32,457 nucleotides of DNA from Nitrospirae bacterium JdFR-81 (GTDB lineage: Bacteria > Nitrospirota > Thermodesulfovibrionia > UBA6902): contig MTOQ01000034.1 of assembly GCA_002011735.1 (NCBI GenBank), positions 1 through 32,457 of the forward strand. Reading direction: 5' to 3'. Within the stretch, counting starts at the first letter, position 1. Every line of letters starts with the position of its first letter. Positions 102-32,265 of the stretch are shown one piece after another. Under the pieces are notes generated by a model. The model did not search any database. It was given only the letters and a program-made list of their open reading frames with translations, and had not been told where the DNA came from. Both the position numbers and the translations under genes were made by a program.

Positions 102-458
102 CTACAGAAACCTCTTTATACTGGAGAGGACAGAGTTGGTAAGCCTCCTCCACTTCTCCCTGACAGGCAGGACAACGATTATCATAAACCGTTCATCCTG
201 TATATCCACATACCGCACGACCAGTCTCATGCCCCTGTTATCAGCCCTGATCGCCACTTCATCGATATGTCCGGTGTGAAGCTCATCACCTACCCTCTTT
301 ATAAAACCCCTGTCTCCTGAAAAGAGAGAGGCCAGCACCTCGGGGTCATACTCAGCACCGTGGTTCTCAACAACAAGCCCATCCCTGTCCACAAGGACGA
401 CCTGTTTGACCCTGCCCTCATCCACTGCCACCTTTAATTCCTCTGAAAAGAAGGACAT
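102..458 (-). CDS. Roadblock/LC7-domain protein (first of three)
   Basis: This 118-residue protein has the size and pattern of a single Roadblock/LC7 domain, the fold of MglB-type regulators of small GTPases. The signature is VVLVDRDGLVVENHG near residues 20-33, followed by alternating hydrophobic strands (MRLVVRYVD, FMIIVVLPV). The frame stays open upstream to 560, but I chose the ATG at 458 because AAGAGG lies a few bases before it and the upstream residues do not look like the family. It is divergent from the response regulator gene at 541, so both promoters must lie within about 80 bp. It is more diverged than the two Roadblock proteins at 2022 and 2403. A role as GTPase regulator or scaffold is inferred from the fold and from the GTPase at 2749-3216. 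Confidence 0.75.
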   Translation of the reverse strand: MSFFSEELKVAVDEGRVKQVVLVDRDGLVVENHGAEYDPEVLASLFSGDRGFIKRVGDELHTGHIDEVAIRADNRGMRLVVRYVDIQDERFMIIVVLPVREKWRRLTNSVLSSIKRFL

Positions 459-540
459 CCCGATCCTCTTGAAATTTTTTCGTCTCCAATCTAATATAAC
501 AACACCCTTTTTTTCAAGTGTCTTGGGATTTGTTAAGGAG

Positions 541-1980
541 ATGCAGGATACCATACTCATTGTAGATGATAACGAGACACTCCTGCAGGCGCTGGAGTTT
601 AATCTGACCCAGGCAGGCTACAGGGTCTTGAAGGCCGTGGATGGCAGGGAGGCCCTTGAGATCGCCCTCCGTGAACACCCCGACATAATAGTTTCAGATG
701 TGGCGATGCCTGAGATGGATGGTGTTGAGTTATGCAGGAAGATAAGGGAGAATGCATCCTTCAAGGATGTCCCCTTTATATTTCTTACGGCCCATGGTGA
801 ACCGGAGGAAAGGGTAAGGGGCCTGCGGTCAGGGGCAGATGATTACATCGTGAAGCCATTTGATATAGAGGAGTTGATAGCCCGTGTGGAGGTCATTCAC
901 CGGAGGATGAAGAAGGATACATCGAGTAATGGCCTGTCCGGTGACCTGTCGCATGTCCTGCTGCCCGATATACTCCAGATGCTTGAACAATCAAGGAAGA
1001 AGGGAAGACTGGTAATCCAGACAGACGACGACAAGGGCTACATCTCTATTGATAACGGGATGCTGCTTGAGGCGGTATTCGGAGAACACAGGGGAGAGGA
1101 TGCACTTGTAAGGATGTTCATGCTGAAGAACGGAAGATTCTACTATCAGATGGGAGAGGTCGAAGAGGGGTCGATAATGAAGTCCATAGGGTTTACCATG
1201 ATAGAGGTCGCAAAGCTATGTGACGAGATTGAGATGTTGAAGGAATTCATTCCGGATGATGAGGTGAAACTTGAGATCATAAAGACTCCTCCCTCTACCG
1301 ATGATGAGACATCCACAATCATAAGGCTCTTGCAGGATTCTCCAAAGAGTATAAACGAGCTTGCAGAGATGTCAGGCCTCTCTGTAACCAGGACATCCAT
1401 TATAGCGGCAAGACTGAGAAAGGACTCCTTTGTCGAAATAGCGAATGAAAAAGACAGGAGGTGCATGATGGTATCAAAGAAAGACCCCATCAAATTCGCC
1501 CTGTGGGGGATGCTCGTGGGCAATATCGAGAGCATGGGTATACTCCCTGCACTTCAGGGTGGAGAGGCGATCGCACAGGCCCTTGAGGGCAACGATGTGC
1601 TGGAGAAGCTATCCGAGATCGATGGTGAGAACAATTATGAATTCCAGAGCAAGAACGGCTTCAGGTTTGTAATCTTAAAGGCCTGTCCATTCACCCCGAT
1701 ATATAAAGACATACCACCATGGAGTGAAAAGGCGATGAGACTCGTTGAGGCATACAACAAGAGGTCAGATGGAGGAGGTGCACTCCACCCACTCTGTCTG
1801 GTCCATAAGGGTATCAGGAGCGCGATGAAGGCAGGTATCGTCAGCATCGGCTGTAGGAGTGGCTCAACCGGAAAGATGGAGATCGCTGAACACGCACTCG
1901 ATAAGGTTGGTATATCAAAGGATGAGGCCATCGCCATGCTCGAGGGGAAGGCCTGTCTGTTTGCAATCAAGGAGGGATGA
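541..1980 (+). CDS. Response regulator with PATAN (DUF4388) and winged-helix domains
   Basis: This protein has 479 residues from the ATG at 541. Residues 4-122 are a receiver domain with acidic pair D9/D10, phospho-acceptor D53 (SDVAMPEMDG) and conserved K105 (VKPF). Residues 131-232 match the PATAN/DUF4388 domain common in delta-proteobacterial and cyanobacterial signalling proteins. Residues about 257-312 look like a winged helix (SINELAEMSGLSVTRTSI). The last 160 residues are a domain I do not recognise with cysteines at 382, 419, 438 and 472. AAGGAG directly abuts the ATG, an unusually short spacing; the frame is open upstream to 406, but those residues do not fit a receiver domain. It sits just upstream of two Roadblock genes, so it is probably the output of the nearby kinase and coupled to the GTPase module. 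The DNA or RNA target is unknown. Confidence 0.88.
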   Translation: MQDTILIVDDNETLLQALEFNLTQAGYRVLKAVDGREALEIALREHPDIIVSDVAMPEMDGVELCRKIRENASFKDVPFIFLTAHGEPEERVRGLRSGADDYIVKPFDIEELIARVEVIHRRMKKDTSSNGLSGDLSHVLLPDILQMLEQSRKKGRLVIQTDDDKGYISIDNGMLLEAVFGEHRGEDALVRMFMLKNGRFYYQMGEVEEGSIMKSIGFTMIEVAKLCDEIEMLKEFIPDDEVKLEIIKTPPSTDDETSTIIRLLQDSPKSINELAEMSGLSVTRTSIIAARLRKDSFVEIANEKDRRCMMVSKKDPIKFALWGMLVGNIESMGILPALQGGEAIAQALEGNDVLEKLSEIDGENNYEFQSKNGFRFVILKACPFTPIYKDIPPWSEKAMRLVEAYNKRSDGGGALHPLCLVHKGIRSAMKAGIVSIGCRSGSTGKMEIAEHALDKVGISKDEAIAMLEGKACLFAIKEG

Positions 1981-2402: not shown

Positions 2403-2765
2403 ATGGAAGTAGAGAAGATAAAGACCGAGATCGAGAGGATAGTAAGGGGTGTAGAAGGCGTAAGGTCTGTCTTTCTCATAACAGATGATGGCCTTTCGGT
2501 CGTAAGCACACTTGAGACAGGTGAAGAGGAGATAAAGTCCACAGCGGTGGGGGCAATCCTGTGTTCAGCAGGAGAGAGGGGATCAACGGAGCTCGAACTT
2601 GGTGACTTCAATGCCGTTGTGACTATTGCGGAGAGGGGATACTTTGTTATAAGCCGTGTCAAGAAGGAATTCATCCTTATGGTGGTTGCAGGTTCAGAAG
2701 TGCCGCTTGGCATCGTCCTCCTCAATATAAGGAGGGCGATCAGGAGGATCAGAGATTATCTATGA
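2403..2765 (+). CDS. Roadblock/LC7-domain protein (third of three)
   Basis: This 120-residue protein is a second Roadblock/LC7 domain placed 9 bp after the MglB-like gene. It has VRSVFLITDDGLSVVSTLE near residues 20-38, an acidic loop, FNAVVTIAERGYFVISRV in the central strands, and PLGIVLLNIRRAIRRIRDYL as the terminal helix. A tandem pair suggests a heterodimer. No strong ribosome binding site precedes the ATG, so translation may depend on coupling to the upstream gene. The 3' end overlaps the 3' end of the convergent GTPase gene by 17 bp, which makes antisense effects between the two possible. Confidence 0.88.
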   Translation: MEVEKIKTEIERIVRGVEGVRSVFLITDDGLSVVSTLETGEEEIKSTAVGAILCSAGERGSTELELGDFNAVVTIAERGYFVISRVKKEFILMVVAGSEVPLGIVLLNIRRAIRRIRDYL

Positions 2766-3216
2766 TCCTCCTCAGGACATCCATACAGAACCCCCTCTCC
2801 CTCACATCCCCTTCCATGCAATGAATATGGAGGGGAAGAGGAGAAAGGACCCTGGTGACATCCTTCATGGTGAGAAGGGAGACAGTTGCCTTTCTGTTAA
2901 TCACAGAGATAAAAGGAGTGCCAAGCATCTTTACCTCTTTCACTATCTGCAGATCCAGGTCTTCAAGTGGCCTTGAGTTGTCAAAGATCAGGATTGACAT
3001 CCTTGCTGACAGTGCCACTATATCCCTTATGCACTCGAATCTTGCCTGTCCTGGGGTGCCGTAGAAATGGAGTGTCGTCCCGTCAAAATTGAATGTGCCA
3101 AAGTCAAAGGCAATGGTTCTACCCTGATGTTCTATATTGACCGCATCAGGTATGATGCTCCTTATGAAGGTGCTTTTACCTGCCTCTGCCTTGCCGAAGA
3201 TGACTATCTTGACCAT
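2749..3216 (-). CDS. Ras-like small GTPase, MglA-type
   Basis: This 155-residue protein has a P-loop GKAEAGKST at 8-16, a switch I threonine near T34 (GRTIAFDFG), and YGTPGQ at 52-57 where Ras proteins have DxxG. The proline variant resembles the PGQ motif of MglA. The base-specificity motif is degenerate: VINRKA at 105-110 in place of NKxD. MglA-type GTPases switch polarity and signalling complexes in bacteria and are controlled by Roadblock proteins, three of which lie within 3 kb. The gene converges on the Roadblock gene at 2403 and diverges from the kinase at 3277. It has no Shine-Dalgarno sequence; a strong promoter lies so close that the transcript should be nearly leaderless. Nucleotide preference is uncertain because of the altered motif. 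Confidence 0.85.
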   Translation of the reverse strand: MVKIVIFGKAEAGKSTFIRSIIPDAVNIEHQGRTIAFDFGTFNFDGTTLHFYGTPGQARFECIRDIVALSARMSILIFDNSRPLEDLDLQIVKEVKMLGTPFISVINRKATVSLLTMKDVTRVLSPLPLHIHCMEGDVRERGFCMDVLRRIIDNL

Positions 3217-17210: not shown

Positions 17211-17558
17211 TCATCGATGAGTCCTCTGTAAAAGGGCGTCTCTATCCAGCAAGATAATCCCTTCCATTGCTATATCAAGGAAAAGGGGGTTATGATTTCT
17301 GAAGTTAGAGACCGCCTCCTCAGGGGTAAGCAAGAGTATATCAAAAGGCCCAGCAGGAAGGCATCGTCTTATCCGCATTATCTCGTTCCCTCTTCTGTGC
17401 AGTTTTGGATTGATGCCCCTGGCTACAACGAGAATATCGAGATCAGAATAAGGTGTTGCTTCTCCCCTTACCCTTGAACCAAAGGCTATCATTCCCCTGA
17501 TATCAAAGGGAAGATGGCACCCCTCAAGTGTCTCTTCAATCTCACGGAGGATATCCAT
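17211..17558 (-). CDS. MNT-type nucleotidyltransferase (orphan)
   Basis: This 115-residue protein is a minimal nucleotidyltransferase: FGSRVRGEATPYSDLDILVV near residues 26-45 has the GSxRG and DxD residues. MNT proteins are often antitoxins of HEPN RNases and work by adding nucleotides to them. The HEPN partner usually overlaps the MNT gene, but none is found downstream, where the gap holds only a degenerate frame. It could be a leftover from a lost MNT/HEPN pair, or an independent enzyme. The start has AGGG about 7 bp upstream. Confidence 0.8.
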   Translation of the reverse strand: MDILREIEETLEGCHLPFDIRGMIAFGSRVRGEATPYSDLDILVVARGINPKLHRRGNEIMRIRRCLPAGPFDILLLTPEEAVSNFRNHNPLFLDIAMEGIILLDRDALLQRTHR

Positions 17559-22787: not shown

Positions 22788-23516
22788 TTAATATTTTACT
22801 TCATGTTTCAGGGGATCCTCTATCCCTGCCTCCCTGAAACCCTTCTCCCTGAGAAGACAGCTGTCACACCTGCCACACGGGACATAGCCGTGATGTGTGA
22901 CGGCTGACGTGTAGGATAGTGCACCACGCTCCTGTGGATCATAACAACTCCACGTGTCAGAGAAATCCACTCCAAGTTCATATCCCTTCCTGATGATCTC
23001 GGCCTTGCTCATGTTAATCAGTGGGGCATGGATCCTGAACCTCATCCTGCCCTCCACAGATGCCTTCATCGCCAGATTCGCCATCTCCTCATACGCCCTG
23101 AGAAACTCGGGTCTGCAATCAGGATAACCACTGTAGTCAATGGCATTTGCACCAATGAATATATCCCCAGAACCGATGGTCTCAGCCCATGCAAGTGCAA
23201 GGGACAGAAATATCACATTCCTTGCAGGCACATATGTAACGGGTATCTCCCTCAGCCTCTGGACGTCACGATCCTTTGGCACCTCGATATCTGAGGTAAG
23301 GGCCGATCTCGCTATGGAGGAAAGATCGATCTCTATTATGACATGCTCAACCACCTTAAACCTCTCTGCGTTTCTCCTCGCCACTTCAAGCTCCACCCTC
23401 TGCCTTTGATGATAGTCAAGACTCATGGCATACACATCATATCCCTCATGCCTTGCAATGGCGAGGGTCGTCGTGGAATCAATGCCTCCGCTCAGAAGCA
23501 CCACCGCCCTCTTCAT
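22788..23516 (-). CDS. queC: 7-cyano-7-deazaguanine synthase QueC
   Basis: This enzyme of about 242 residues makes preQ0 from carboxydeazaguanine, an early step in queuosine tRNA modification and in 7-deazaguanine DNA modification. Visible are the N-type ATP pyrophosphatase loop [11 protein letters not shown] near residues 7-17, the [19 protein letters not shown] motif and the zinc-binding cysteines in WSCYDP and PCGRCDSC. The start is ATG 23516, with GAGGTG 5 bp upstream. No other queuosine gene is adjacent. It follows the PATAN-fusion gene by 9 bp. Confidence 0.95.
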
Positions 23517-23525
23517 CACATCACC

Positions 23526-24569
23526 TCAATATATATCGTCTTCCGTGCCTTTAATCCTGTCAGGGCCTGAACTGAAGAGCCTGAAACCATCCTCTGTCCT
23601 CTCATATATAAACGGCATACCCCAGGGGTCCTTTTCATCGGTTATGAGGTCAAGGCTCTCCGGATACCTCCCATGTGTTACCCTGTAGATATCTATCTTG
23701 TTCTTCAGCTGTTCTATCTTTGAGACGGCCCTGTTCTTTTTAAACGCCTTGAATACATCGATCTGCCCGAAGAACGTGAAGAAGAGGATAAATATTATAG
23801 CAACAAAGACCAGGCCGATTACTATATTCCTCCTTGATGGTGCCTCAACAACCTGCACCTCTTCCCTCTGGGGCCTTCTAACTGGCGCGATGATCCCTTT
23901 CTCATTAAGGGAGATCAGGGCCTTTGATGTCTCAAGGTCACCAAGGGGGCTTATATTTATTATCATGCTCGCATCACTCTCACCATCAACAAGATTAAGC
24001 ACCGCCGCCTCCACATCATCGATCTCGTCCTTTTCAGGGACCCTCTCCTGTTTAAAGACCGTGTCAAGGCTCAGCCTGCCCTCCACCACAGACCATTCGT
24101 CAACACTCTTGAGACTGTCCATCAGGAGGTGCTGTGTGTCTATTGTGACCGGTAGCTCTGAAGGGGCCTTCTCCTGGGGTATAAACTCATACCTGCCCTC
24201 ATTCCATGTGAGCACAAGGGACAGTGTATCAGTAATCTGGTGCTGGATCGTCTCTATGAGTATCTCCTTAGGGACCAGCCCCTTTTTATACAGGATATTT
24301 GCGAGACGGGCATTCTCCTGCTTCTGTATCTCGAGTGCTGACTGAAGTGCCTCAGGGGTCAGGAGACCCTTCTTCACGAGTATCCTGCCAAGCTTCTCCT
24401 CCTCCACCCTGTTCTCTGATTCAAGGCCTGTTATGTTACCATTCACAATGGTCACCTTTATGCGATTGTCCTTGCCCTCGATCAACAACACACCTGTCTT
24501 CTTCTGAAAGTATATGAGCTGGAGGATATCGGCAAGTCCAAACTCCTGCAGGAATCCCTCTAACGCCAT
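23526..24569 (-). CDS. PATAN (DUF4388) - transmembrane - type II pseudopilin-like fusion protein
   Basis: This 347-residue protein begins with a PATAN/DUF4388 region (ALEGFLQEFGLADILQLIYF at 2-21, continuing to about 155). A second helical segment follows, then one transmembrane helix at 248-268 and a C-terminal domain (283-347) like the soluble part of GspG-type pseudopilins: KIEQLKNKIDIYRVTHGRYPESL, DPWGMPFIYE and SGPDRIKGTEDDIY. The pseudopilin N-terminal methylated helix is missing, so it is anchored by the internal helix, with the PATAN part presumably in the cytoplasm. It overlaps the TPR/zinc-ribbon gene by 10 bp. A role in envelope signalling or assembly is inferred. Confidence 0.8.
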   Translation of the reverse strand: MALEGFLQEFGLADILQLIYFQKKTGVLLIEGKDNRIKVTIVNGNITGLESENRVEEEKLGRILVKKGLLTPEALQSALEIQKQENARLANILYKKGLVPKEILIETIQHQITDTLSLVLTWNEGRYEFIPQEKAPSELPVTIDTQHLLMDSLKSVDEWSVVEGRLSLDTVFKQERVPEKDEIDDVEAAVLNLVDGESDASMIINISPLGDLETSKALISLNEKGIIAPVRRPQREEVQVVEAPSRRNIVIGLVFVAIIFILFFTFFGQIDVFKAFKKNRAVSKIEQLKNKIDIYRVTHGRYPESLDLITDEKDPWGMPFIYERTEDGFRLFSSGPDRIKGTEDDIY

Positions 24570-26317
24570 CTCCTCGGAACCTTTCTGAATACATTAAAAA
24601 GGGTTATTGTATAGAGGAGTATAAGACCTGATAGCGAGACCCATCTGAACACCCTGGCCGCATCACTCATTGCAACAGAGGGGATGAAATATGTCCATAT
24701 AAAGGCGACGATTAATAGAAAGACAAAGAAGAACATTATGAGAAAGCCCTGGATTGTCCATCCATAAAACAGATGACCGCTACCTGGCAGGATGAGACTC
24801 AACAACTTGACCATCTGTATCCTGTCCTCCCTGTAACGGTGTATCTGCACGGTCCTTGCTATCCTCTCCTTGACCCTGAGGCTGGTGATATCGGTGAGTG
24901 CACTGTAGCAGAGGTGACACATATCACCACGGGCGAGCTTCCTCTCACAATGGCCACACTGTACGGCCCCACACATGACACACCTGTAGGCGAATACCTG
25001 GGCCTTCCGTTCATACACATTAAAGGCGATTAGGATGAGTACAAGTATCAGATAAGAGATCTTCTTATTTGTGAATGAGAGCATCTTGCCCAGGTGTCCC
25101 TCTGACGATGTGCTCCTGAACGCCAGTGACCACAGCTCACCAACACTCAGTATCTCATCCACGACAAAGCTATTCACCGTGGTCCCCCTAAGCCCTGTGA
25201 AGAGGCGGACCTTCTCAGGGCTGATGGAGAGCGCCATATTGTAGAACTCCTCACCCTTCTTGAAGTCAAAGAACTCCCTGTACATCTGGCTGAGATTATA
25301 GTATGTTGAGGCCAACTTTGATGTCTGGAGTGCCTTTGTATAGTATTTAAGTGCCATCTCGTTATCATTCAGGCCCACATAACAGTTTGCGATATTATTG
25401 TAGAGCTTTGCATCAGCAGTCCTCCCATACTTACCAAGGAGGGATTGATACACCTCGATCGCCTTCCTGTAATGCCCCTTCCTCTTGAGGTCAAGGGCAT
25501 ATGTGAAGGCCGTTTCGTAATCGTCTCCGCCCTTCAACAGATAGACCGTATCGCCTGTGTAAAGGCCACTGTTGATATTGATTATATTCCTGAGCCTGAC
25601 ATTTGCAGAGGCATTGAAGAAGGACGAAAGGAATGGGGCCAGCTGTATCATAACCGCTACGACTATGAAGATTGCGTAAACAAGGTATCTCTCGTCCTTC
25701 TTCAGATACAGCCAGAACGGCAATAGCGAGGCGAGTATACCGAATATCGGACCAAGGAAGACAAAGACCACGGGAGGGATGAGCAGATACAGCCTCCTCC
25801 TGTCCTCATGTATATCATGTATGTACAGGTTAAACCTTGAGGCCACCAGTATGATGACCAGGATGATTATAGAGATATACAGGGACAGATAAAGGGCGAT
25901 GAGGAAATTGCCCGATGTCCTGAAAGACCACCAGAAGTTATTCCTAATCGCCCTCCACGCATCCCTTATGTACCCGATGCTCTGTGTAAGCCCCTCTGTT
26001 GTAAAGGAGAAGCTCGTCCTTGCAAGGTATATATAGGACTGCGGGAGGTCAGGTGAGAGGCTTGCTGCAGCCTTGAAGTATGCTATGGCCTCCTCTGTCC
26101 TGCCATTCTCCAGTGCAACAAGGCCCTTTGATATGAGGGTTATGGACTGTGGCTCAAGGTTACGGAGGCCCTTCTCCTTCCTGAAATCAGAGAATGCCTT
26201 GATGTCGACGATATTCGTGGGCTTATCCTCACCAAACAGATCCCCTGCAGACACCATACCCACAATAAAAAAGAGGACCAGCACCAGCAGGGTCTTGTTC
26301 CTTCTGTGTATGCTCAT
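24560..26317 (-). CDS. TPR-rich membrane protein with zinc ribbon
   Basis: This 585-residue protein has an N-terminal signal or membrane segment (9-24), TPR repeats near 58-100 and 270-375, transmembrane segments around 140-240, and another near 425-440. A cysteine-rich zinc ribbon (CVMCG, CGHC and CHLC) lies near 445-471. Near the C-terminus SLILPGSGHLFYGWTIQGF looks like a TM2-type loop, followed by two helices. The start codon lies 4 bp inside the end of plsY. It is translationally coupled to the PATAN fusion gene downstream, so the two products probably act together. Function is unknown. Confidence 0.75.
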   Translation of the reverse strand: MSIHRRNKTLLVLVLFFIVGMVSAGDLFGEDKPTNIVDIKAFSDFRKEKGLRNLEPQSITLISKGLVALENGRTEEAIAYFKAAASLSPDLPQSYIYLARTSFSFTTEGLTQSIGYIRDAWRAIRNNFWWSFRTSGNFLIALYLSLYISIIILVIILVASRFNLYIHDIHEDRRRLYLLIPPVVFVFLGPIFGILASLLPFWLYLKKDERYLVYAIFIVVAVMIQLAPFLSSFFNASANVRLRNIININSGLYTGDTVYLLKGGDDYETAFTYALDLKRKGHYRKAIEVYQSLLGKYGRTADAKLYNNIANCYVGLNDNEMALKYYTKALQTSKLASTYYNLSQMYREFFDFKKGEEFYNMALSISPEKVRLFTGLRGTTVNSFVVDEILSVGELWSLAFRSTSSEGHLGKMLSFTNKKISYLILVLILIAFNVYERKAQVFAYRCVMCGAVQCGHCERKLARGDMCHLCYSALTDITSLRVKERIARTVQIHRYREDRIQMVKLLSLILPGSGHLFYGWTIQGFLIMFFFVFLLIVAFIWTYFIPSVAMSDAARVFRWVSLSGLILLYTITLFNVFRKVPRRWR

Positions 26318-26946
26318 CGACTCCTCTGTCCGATCTTCGGCTCCCTTCCTTCCAGCAGCCTCTTTATATTCTCCTTATGCCTTAATACTACCAAAAAAGC
26401 AGCGATTATACCAAAATAAATTTTAAATGCTGTGTGATCAAAAAGTAAAATAGAGACAGGCAGAAATAGAGAGGCACATATGGCAGCAAGTGATGAGTAT
26501 CTTGTAACAACAGCCACGGTCAGCCAGACCACGATAACACCAAGTGCAGGTATGGGGGTGTATACGGCGATTACACCAAGGCTCGTTGCCACGCCCTTAC
26601 CGCCTTTGAACGAGAGGAAGACTGAATATATATGACCCAGGATCGCCATAAGACCCACCAGGCCCTCCCATAGTGTGGCCTCGCTATATATACCGTCTCC
26701 CTGTATACGGGCAAGGATTACCCTGCAGAGCAGCACAGGCAGTGCACCCTTGAGCGCATCACCAAGGAGGGTGGCAAGTGCAGGGAGCCTGCCTGTCGTC
26801 CTCAGGACATTCGTTGCCCCGATGTTCCTGCTCCCTGTCTGCCTTATATCGACCCCCTTTGCCCTGCTGATAAGGAGGCCGAAGGGGATCGAACCCATTA
26901 TATATGCAAAGGGTATAAGCGCATATAAAAGGAGATACAGCATCAT
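26314..26946 (-). CDS. plsY: Acyl-phosphate glycerol-3-phosphate acyltransferase PlsY
   Basis: This 210-residue integral membrane enzyme transfers the acyl group of acyl-phosphate to glycerol-3-phosphate in the first step of phospholipid synthesis. PlsY motifs are present: GSIPFGLLI near residues 18-26, GSRNIGATNVLR near 38-49 and GHIYSVFLSFKGGKGVAT near 104-121. Five or so transmembrane segments fit the family. The ATG overlaps the pgsA stop codon (ATGA). An acyl-phosphate source (PlsX) is not in the window. Confidence 0.95.
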   Translation of the reverse strand: MMLYLLLYALIPFAYIMGSIPFGLLISRAKGVDIRQTGSRNIGATNVLRTTGRLPALATLLGDALKGALPVLLCRVILARIQGDGIYSEATLWEGLVGLMAILGHIYSVFLSFKGGKGVATSLGVIAVYTPIPALGVIVVWLTVAVVTRYSSLAAICASLFLPVSILLFDHTAFKIYFGIIAAFLVVLRHKENIKRLLEGREPKIGQRSR

Positions 26947-27473
26947 ATCTTTCTCCAGAACAATACAAAATACCTCATTCCAGAGACAACACCTATAACC
27001 ATCGCTATTAACAGCAGAATGATACCTGGATTATAGAGGTCTATACCTATAGAGCTCCTGTCAACAAGCAAGAGGAGGATGGATGATACCTGGGCAACGG
27101 TCTTGATCTTCCCACCTGACTCAGCAGGGATCATGATATTCCTTGAGAGTGCTACGATCCTCAGGCCTGTGACAAGAAACTCCCTGAGGATGATTATGAT
27201 GGCGATCCACGCAGGCACCATGCCCATGTCCACAAGCATGATAAGGGCCGAGATAACCAGGAGTTTGTCAGCAAGGGGATCAAGCAATATGCCAAGCTTC
27301 GTTATCTGCTTCTGCCTCCTTGCAAGGTAACCGTCAAGGAGGTCCGTGGCAGAAGCAATGGCAAAGACAAGCGCACCTGGTAGTGGGTCAGATGTTGCGA
27401 TCAGGATAAAGACAGGTATCAGGAGTATCCTGCTGAGGGTGATTATGGTGGGTATGTTAAACAAGTGACTCAC
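26943..27473 (-). CDS. pgsA: CDP-diacylglycerol-glycerol-3-phosphate 3-phosphatidyltransferase PgsA
   Basis: This 176-residue membrane enzyme makes phosphatidylglycerol-phosphate. The CDP-alcohol phosphatidyltransferase signature is complete: DLLDGYLARRQKQITKLG then ILLDPLADK near residues 44-70, with the DGxxAR...D...D pattern. Other hydrophobic segments fit the family. It overlaps kdsC by 17 bp and plsY by 4 bp, so it is inside a tightly packed operon that joins lipid A/Kdo supply to phospholipid synthesis. Confidence 0.94.
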   Translation of the reverse strand: MSHLFNIPTIITLSRILLIPVFILIATSDPLPGALVFAIASATDLLDGYLARRQKQITKLGILLDPLADKLLVISALIMLVDMGMVPAWIAIIIILREFLVTGLRIVALSRNIMIPAESGGKIKTVAQVSSILLLLVDRSSIGIDLYNPGIILLLIAMVIGVVSGMRYFVLFWRKI

Positions 27474-30364: not shown

Positions 30365-30708
30365 TTATATTTCCCTCAGAATCTTCTGTATTTCAGGTTT
30401 CAAATCTGGCAATTCTTTACTGATTATATCCCAAACGATGTCATAATCGACAACAAAATAGCCATGGATCAAACGATTCCTAAGAGATATAATTTGGGGC
30501 CAGGGGATTGGTTGATATTTCTGTTGAATCTCTCTTCAGGAATCTGGTTGGCAGCCTCTCCTATAATTTCAAGATTTCTAACTACAGCATCCTTTGTTTT
30601 TGCATCCTGAATAAATTCTTCATAAGAGAGTCCAGAAATATAACTTTCAATCTTTTCTATGCACTCTAATATATCTATCAGAAACAGTCTCAAGTCTCTC
30701 TTAGACAT
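30365..30708 (-). pseudogene. HepT-type HEPN RNase toxin (DUF86), frameshifted
   Basis: The first 60 or so codons read MSKRDLRLFLIDILECIEKI through NLEIIGEAANQIPEE, a clear DUF86/HepT start. The frame then goes out and stops at 30469. The second half continues in another frame as IQQKYQPIPWPQIISLRNRL and IHGYFVVDYDIVWD, down to TAA 30365-30367. The RNRLIHGY stretch is the HEPN catalytic RNase motif. The break is at a (GA)3 tract (30529-30534, TC on the plus strand): removing one GA restores a 114-residue protein of normal length. It overlaps the MntA-like gene by 8 bp. Either a natural mutation or an assembly error. Confidence 0.85.
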
Positions 30709-30997
30709 AACTCAAGTCCTCTTTTATACTCTCCCATAGCTGGGACTTTTGCTTTATTGCTTTTACTGTAAGCAGATCAACCCTTACACCCAGAACTTCC
30801 TCAAGGTTATTCCACAATTCAAAAAACTTAAGCCCAATAGGCCGTTCTAATTCAACAAGAATATCAACATCGCTTAATTTGTTTTGCTTCCCCCTTGCAT
30901 AAGAGCCGAATACGCCAAGAATGACTACACCGTATTTCTCTCTTATTTCCTGTTTATGCTTTGACAATATGTGTTTTATGTCTTCTAAGGTTCTCAT
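30701..30997 (-). CDS. MntA-type nucleotidyltransferase antitoxin
   Basis: This protein of about 98 residues has VFGSYARGKQNKLSDVDILV, the GSxxRG...DxD motif of MNT nucleotidyltransferases. In MntA/HepT modules the antitoxin AMPylates a tyrosine near the HEPN motif of the toxin. The HepT gene follows with an 8-bp overlap, the usual order. I start at the ATG at 30997; an upstream TTG at 31027 would add ten residues. The antitoxin looks intact while the toxin is frameshifted. Confidence 0.87.
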   Translation of the reverse strand: MRTLEDIKHILSKHKQEIREKYGVVILGVFGSYARGKQNKLSDVDILVELERPIGLKFFELWNNLEEVLGVRVDLLTVKAIKQKSQLWESIKEDLSYV

Positions 30998-31046
30998 TTT
31001 CTTAAAATCTATTTTGACATATCTCAATTTGATTTTTCTTTTTGTC

Positions 31047-31837: not shown

Positions 31838-31951
31838 TCAAAGATGCCTTTTTGACAAAAACCTCCTTTTAAATAAAACTTTTGCCTCTTCAATAGATTC
31901 TTCTGCCTCCTTAAGCCTGTATTCAATAAGGGCACGAAGCTCTTTTTTCAT
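31838..31951 (-). pseudogene. Truncated HEPN-domain gene (37 codons)
   Basis: The ATG at 31951 overlaps the stop of the nucleotidyltransferase gene (ATGA), the usual MNT/HEPN coupling. The protein begins MKKELRALIEYRLKEAEESI then EEAKVLF, typical of the first helix of HEPN proteins, but stops at TGA 31838-31840. No catalytic RxxxxH motif remains. The rest was probably lost by a deletion whose edge lies near the next gene's start. Confidence 0.6.
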
Positions 31952-32265
31952 ACAGTAATTCCTTCTTTATAAACATTTTTAATAAAAACAGATTCTTTTA
32001 TATTTCCATATCTTAGCGAATCTTTACTTAATACGATAGGCACAACTACAACATCTTCAAAGAATCCTGCTTCCCATGCACATTCACTAATATATTTTTC
32101 TATTTCACGATCCAGATACTCAACAACTATCAAAACATCAAGGTCAGATACTTTTGTAGCCGTACCTCGCGCCCTTGATCCAAAGACTCTTATCTCATAA
32201 ACTTTTACTTTTCTGGAAATAAGTTCCTTGAACCTTTTAATTATTTTCAAATCCTTTTCGTCCAT
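31948..32265 (-). CDS. MNT-type nucleotidyltransferase
   Basis: This 105-residue protein has VFGSRARGTATKVSDLDVLIVV near residues 27-48, with the GSxxRG and DxD motif of minimal nucleotidyltransferases. It is the upstream member of a MNT/HEPN pair whose HEPN gene is truncated. It differs in sequence from the copies at 30701 and 17211, so these are not recent duplicates. The ATG has only a weak ribosome binding site. It may have kept a function of its own or be a relic. Confidence 0.82.
   Translation of the reverse strand: MDEKDLKIIKRFKELISRKVKVYEIRVFGSRARGTATKVSDLDVLIVVEYLDREIEKYISECAWEAGFFEDVVVVPIVLSKDSLRYGNIKESVFIKNVYKEGITV

Follow-up and report, generated by a model that had tools for sequence, protein, structure and literature searches.

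A gene pair of Nitrospirota encoding a PATAN/pilin-like fusion protein and a TPR membrane protein: a candidate c-di-GMP relay at the inner membrane

What role can be envisioned for a protein that carries a PATAN domain at one end and a GspG-like domain at the other, and how is it related to the membrane protein encoded beside it? The question is raised by two overlapping genes in a 32,457-nucleotide stretch of Nitrospirae bacterium JdFR-81 (contig MTOQ01000034.1, hereafter the window). A sequence-only reading had described a PATAN domain, one helix, and a GspG-like C-terminus in a single chain whose gene shares 10 bp with that of a TPR membrane protein carrying CxxC zinc knuckles. Both descriptions were confirmed: the first by matches to DUF4388 and T2SSG and by a helix at residues 246-299 of a 347-aa protein, and the second by the open reading frames and by six cysteines (C446, C449, C454, C457, C467, and C470) that are invariant in 28/28 aligned partner proteins.

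The gene pair and its neighborhood

Both genes lie on the minus strand. The gene for the 585-aa TPR protein (24560..26317; ORF, Pfam, alignment, and hydrophobicity), which has zinc-knuckle-like cysteines and an N-terminal signal-like segment, comes first and is followed by the gene for the 347-aa fusion protein (23526..24569; ORF, profile matches, and an AlphaFold2 [AF2] model), with its PATAN, MshE-like, winged-helix, transmembrane, and GspG-like parts. The overlap occupies 24560..24569. Upstream on the same strand, the TPR gene shares 4 bp with a gene that we take to be plsY (26314..26946), itself preceded by a presumed pgsA (26943..27473); these two names come from the sequence-only reading rather than from a family search. 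Downstream, 6 bp past the fusion gene, starts a presumed queC (22788..23519, minus strand). All three neighbors were placed by ORF and synteny. The setting is a kdsA-kdsD-kdsC-pgsA-plsY cluster, in which the overlapping genes suggest a single transcript, and no pil or gsp cluster was found around the pair. Elsewhere in the window, three small minus-strand proteins (17211-17558, 30701-31027, and 31948-32265) show by eye a GSxARG...SDLDxLV-type nucleotidyltransferase motif and are possibly toxin-antitoxin or defense parts.

Conservation of the pair is strict. Of the 61 related genomes compared, both genes are present in 14 and missing from 47, and none has one alone; the weakest true match scored 187 bits against 71 for the best background in the case of the fusion, and 130 against 31 bits in that of the partner. 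Across 395 genomes of the phylum, the partner gene was directly upstream on the same strand in 97/97 full-length fusion matches (profile end >= 345) among the matches listed, with a spacing of <=30 nt in 92 and the same 10-bp overlap in 66 of these 97; left out of this count were 24 further matches chosen partly for having the partner nearby. Three genomes (G302, G373, and G414) gave a strong TPR-protein match with the fusion not among the matches listed, and in three others (G191, G280, and G329) the fusion adjoins such a match. The named relatives come from Nitrospirota assemblies, including Thermodesulfovibrionia. Gene order was kept in 30/30 loci (28 distinct, since, judging from their lengths, L038 duplicates the contig of L009 and L039 that of L011), with queC next in 28 and the contig ending in the other two.

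The position of the pair is regular: it comes after plsY in 17/17 named loci and, in 16 distant loci, after pgsA in 16/16 and after plsY in 15/16 (the partner in L101 being detected by profile only). These positions, together with the overlaps that suggest one transcript, favor a reading in which the pair regulates lipid or LPS supply: sensing c-di-GMP as well as the envelope, it would tune the PlsY, PgsA, or Kdo synthesis encoded in the same cluster. However, a place beside housekeeping genes may be kept passively, and the sites that lack the pair argue against this reading. At 12 such sites, drawn from the 43 pair-less relatives in which plsY was matched, queC came right after plsY in 9, a queE-like gene and then queC followed in 2, and the contig ended in 1; kds, pgsA, and plsY stayed put at all 11 assessable sites. 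The pair is therefore not needed for that cluster, nor do its enzymes need the pair, and we consider control of lipid or LPS supply unlikely. The pair is a dispensable cassette and not a required part of the kds/pgsA/plsY pathways. In this phylum-wide system of two genes, the pair-less genomes can be compared as natural "knock-outs."

A PATAN domain with an MshE-type insert

The PATAN domain (DUF4388) was matched in the fusion protein at an E value of 2.9e-28 (98.8 bits against a Pfam cut-off of 25) and at E <= 0.01 in 28/28 aligned orthologs. The match is made up of two minus-strand stretches with an insert in between: profile positions 1-77 fall at 24315..24560, with the remainder of the domain beyond a helical insert, and profile positions 49-122 fall at 24090..24314, overlapping the second motif of that insert. 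The insert itself (residues 59-111; 24237..24395, minus strand) consists of KLGRILVKKGLLTPEALQSALEIQ, 5 residues, and RLANILYKKGLVPKEILIETIQHQ, and is predicted from a profile, motif counts, and fold to be an MshE-type c-di-GMP-binding domain. It had been overlooked in the sequence-only reading, as had a winged-helix region at about residues 165-233.

The NCBIfam model for MshE-related c-di-GMP-binding domains, NF053729, scored 49.4 bits over residues 59-111 against a cut-off of 38 (52.7 bits when run at 24237..24395) and matched 28/28 aligned orthologs at E <= 0.01. A passage of PMC5013675 gives the MshEN layout as a pair of 24-residue motifs separated by 5 residues, and this spacing is matched exactly. 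In 29 sequences, the first motif has R/K1 in 29, G3 in 29, L17 in 29, and Q24 in 23, and the second has R/K1 in 26, G3 in 28, and Q24 in 27. In a PDB sequence profile search, the fusion protein matched PilF (5.2e-23) and MshE (9.4e-9). With VIA-align, residues 57-115 were superimposed on MshE with c-di-GMP at a Z score of 11.0 (59 aligned, rmsd 2.0), which, for a helical bundle, falls short of the tool's own warning level of about 13. Foldseek gave no match for the fusion at E <= 0.001, the MshE and PilF rows having E values of 0.2 to 0.7, mostly with probability 1.00; weight was therefore placed on the profile and VIA results.

Does the insert bind its presumed ligand? In the window's own copy, Ala90 occupies the Gly3 position of motif 2 (Gly in 28/29), and the published relaxed motif is satisfied by both halves in only 9/29 sequences. 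It can be argued that the protein is instead a scaffold, with an insert that does not bind c-di-GMP, a PATAN domain and winged helix that act as protein-protein adaptors, and a GspG-like domain that serves as a periplasmic anchor. Ala90 favors this reading, as do the 5/16 distant loci in which the insert is under the cut-off and the precedent of XpsE/GspE, which a passage of PMC5013675 describes as having lost c-di-GMP binding. The objection is hardened by PilF GSPII-A, where, according to a passage of PMC12002112, small departures from the motif are part of the reason why binding is lost. It is softened by two points made in passages of PMC11731258, namely, that the glycine at position 3 touches the base with its backbone amide and that PilF GSPII-B, in which Lys and Leu occupy position 1, binds c-di-GMP at 6 nM. 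Furthermore, the orthologs retain most contact positions, and 28/28 match the c-di-GMP model. We regard the scaffold as quite improbable and consider it likely, judging from these profile and motif data, that the fusion protein is a c-di-GMP receptor. The ligand is likely to be available, since 61/61 relatives, the 14 pair genomes among them, encode GGDEF proteins, with 11 matches in this genome. PilO was present in 58/61 (14/14 pair genomes and 44/47 pair-less ones); with both so nearly universal, their presence argues little and profiling is uninformative.

The same kind of insert is found in two other PATAN proteins of this genome, PilZ-PATAN-DnaJ-TPR (L002:847-2502) and PATAN-DnaJ-TPR (L003:775-1923), with NF053729 scores of 54.5 bits and 32.5 bits, respectively, the latter under the cut-off; no NF053729 match was obtained at the insert position of an insert-free REC-PATAN protein (window 541-1980, plus strand). 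The PATAN proteins of this genome suggest that the helical insert of PATAN domains, also called the alpha-clip, may generally be an MshE-type module. Passages of PMC7380572 and PMC5812497 call the function of PATAN domains undetermined, and passages from papers that mention both PATAN and MshEN did not equate the insert with MshEN.

A short stand-alone protein (L059:1375-1785) has three MshE-type motif stretches (102.7 bits). In the window, a roadblock protein (102-560, minus strand), the REC-PATAN-winged-helix protein without the insert, and a small Ras/MglA-like GTPase (2749-3216, minus strand) lie close together (Pfam) and resemble a polarity-type module.

The pilin-like end and the TPR partner

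Beyond the PATAN domain, the fusion protein has a winged-helix-like region (residues about 165-233; 23871..24077, minus strand) recognized by fold only, from the AF2 model and VIA-align (Z up to 9.6 against winged-helix regions, 68 aligned, rmsd 2.2). It is followed by a continuous 54-residue helix (residues 246-299; 23673..23834, minus strand; AF2, VIA, hhalign, and hydrophobicity), one half of which is transmembrane and the other pilin-like alpha1-C. The single hydrophobic segment of the protein begins at about residue 248, and the modeled helix resembles pilin alpha1. The AF2 model, built from 28 sequences, has a mean pLDDT of 85.0 and a pTM of only 0.52.

The GspG-like region (residues 269-347; 23529..23765, minus strand; T2SSG, VIA, and patterns) contains DPWG and a GPD..DDI loop and matches GspG by both profile and fold, as had been proposed. 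T2SSG scored 33.8 bits (E value of 3.9e-8) against a Pfam cut-off of 21 and was matched at E <= 0.01 in 25/28 aligned orthologs; with DUF4388 matched in 28/28, the combination is not due to chance. The GspG model TIGR01710 (7.7e-7) remained far under its whole-protein cut-off, since its match is confined to the C-terminal part of the fusion. VIA-align superimposed residues 269-347 on GspG 3g20 (Z 10.6, 79 aligned, rmsd 2.2) and residues 242-347 on residues 1-130 of the filament-model pseudopilin 9a1f (Z 7.8, rmsd 3.8). The PDB profile search aligned profile positions 253-348 with residues 6-126 of GspG 5wda (5.9e-7), and hhalign matched the C-terminal part to six true GspGs of related genomes (E value of 4e-16), the global alignment beginning near mature residue 1. 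DPWG-like sequences were present in 24/27 and the calcium-loop-like pattern in 23/27 orthologs having a C-terminus. In another locus, a small lipoprotein-like protein (L006:1429-1815) has a helix and a YPESL segment like pilin alpha1-C, without the calcium-loop sheet.

A class III prepilin cleavage motif with Glu5, scanned as a pattern, was found in 0/27 orthologs having a C-terminus. The pilin-like part should therefore escape cleavage and remain anchored, a pilin fold kept fixed in the membrane and apparently reused as a transmembrane stalk. True GspG over the cut-off was present in 11/14 pair genomes and 39/47 pair-less genomes. A secretion-specific role for the pair was rejected on this lack of association, and the absence of GspG over the cut-off from three pair genomes (G039, G049, and G050) argues against a role in type II secretion only. 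Resemblance to GspG along its length, in profile and fold, would suit a genuine pseudopilin that is built into a pseudopilus and to which the N-terminal part is an addition; however, the missing prepilin motif, the roughly 245 residues ahead of the helix, and the three pair genomes without GspG over the cut-off make this hardly credible. Judged by the missing motif, the GspG-like domain cannot be an ordinary secretion pseudopilin.

The 16 distant fusion proteins separate the constant part from the variable ones. PATAN was kept in 16/16, the insert was over the NF053729 cut-off in 11/16, and T2SSG was over its cut-off in four (L095, L096, L097, and L099), just under it in L103, and not reported at E <= 0.1 in 11/16. 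What stays constant is therefore the PATAN core, and the pair can persist without the insert or the GspG-like end. All five proteins with a sub-cut-off insert are among those without a T2SSG match, which is suggestive of linked loss; the five come from related families. In L094, DPWG and GPDG..DDL are still visible by eye despite the lack of a T2SSG match. The GspG-like C-terminus has degenerated in L089-L093, L098, L100-L102, and L104, along with the c-di-GMP motif in five.

The TPRs of the partner, at about residues 60-100 and 265-370, flank a membrane-helix block, and several hydrophobic segments are present. Its K/R fraction is 0.23 in the zinc-knuckle part and 0.26 in the C-terminal part, with the second TPR region near neutral. 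These values faintly suggest that the zinc-knuckle-like and C-terminal parts are cytoplasmic and the TPRs periplasmic. All matches from a fold search were to ordinary TPR proteins, and the membrane and cysteine parts were barely covered. On either side of the fusion helix, mean K+R counts are nearly equal (3.39 and 3.36; positive-inside rule), so the orientation of the fusion protein rests on homology.

A proposed relay and its relation to known systems

The computed domains, fold resemblances, missing cleavage motif, and gene linkage are consistent with a two-protein, c-di-GMP-responsive relay in the inner membrane, a proposal whose chances we put just short of even. Ligand, topology, mutual contact of the two proteins, signaling direction, and target are inferred, as follows. 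On the cytoplasmic side would lie a winged helix and a PATAN domain whose MshE-type insert binds c-di-GMP. The uncleaved pseudopilin-like helix would be the anchored link, so that PATAN lies on the cytoplasmic side of the membrane and the GspG-like domain on the periplasmic side. The partner, its TPRs in the periplasm and its zinc-knuckle-like module in the cytoplasm, would probably contact the fusion protein on one or both faces. On c-di-GMP binding, the PATAN module would undergo a change that the helix and the partner pass on, altering the state of an envelope machine. PATAN and TPRs joined in one chain elsewhere in this genome (L002 and L003) were counted as support.

The likeliest target would be the motor and platform of a type IV filament (a pilus or pilus-like structure), which we favor because, according to a passage of PMC12288463, PilB1 of Synechocystis is bound by PATAN regulators, one of which, PixG, binds PilC as well; by this analogy the choice is tentative, at somewhat less than an even chance. 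The envelope-signaling device proposed from the sequence is partly supported: it is reasonable in that the pair may pass signals between the inside of the cell and its envelope, with c-di-GMP as the candidate signal, but synteny alone is no proof of control over envelope synthesis. Of the two outcomes that would have refuted the sequence-only reading, namely, a C-terminus that fails to match GspG profiles and an unconserved gene pair, neither was obtained. More speculatively, and below an even chance, the pair could define a receptor class in which cytoplasmic c-di-GMP is relayed by an uncleavable pseudopilin stalk and a TPR/zinc-knuckle partner; more widely, the PATAN insert would be an MshE-type c-di-GMP sensor in general, and many PATAN regulators would be c-di-GMP receptors. 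PATAN domains are linked to pilus direction and cell patterning, and if the insert is such a sensor, c-di-GMP binding by PATAN proteins becomes directly testable.

The insert is reminiscent of the MshEN/GSPII domains of the MshE, PilB, and PilF traffic ATPases, with which it shares the 53-residue tandem motif, its spacing, and a predicted four-helix bundle. Unlike those domains, it sits inside the PATAN domain of a membrane protein that has no ATPase domain. Likewise, the regulators PatA, PixG, PixE, and LsiR have a PATAN domain, a helical insert, and a helix-turn-helix-like region; the insert and helix-turn-helix of PatA were reportedly described by Makarova in 2006. The fusion protein differs from them in being membrane anchored, in having a GspG-like C-terminus, and in lacking a receiver domain (no Pfam match to Response_reg, the PatA-type C-terminal receiver, was found in it). 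The L002 and L003 proteins have a PATAN domain with the same kind of insert and are TPR linked, but they carry the TPRs in the same chain and have no pilin part. With the major pseudopilins GspG, PulG, and XcpT, the fusion protein has in common a long alpha1 helix, DPWG, a calcium-loop-like sequence, and the fold, whereas it has no class III signal, a large N-terminal part before the helix, and a shorter helix-sheet loop.
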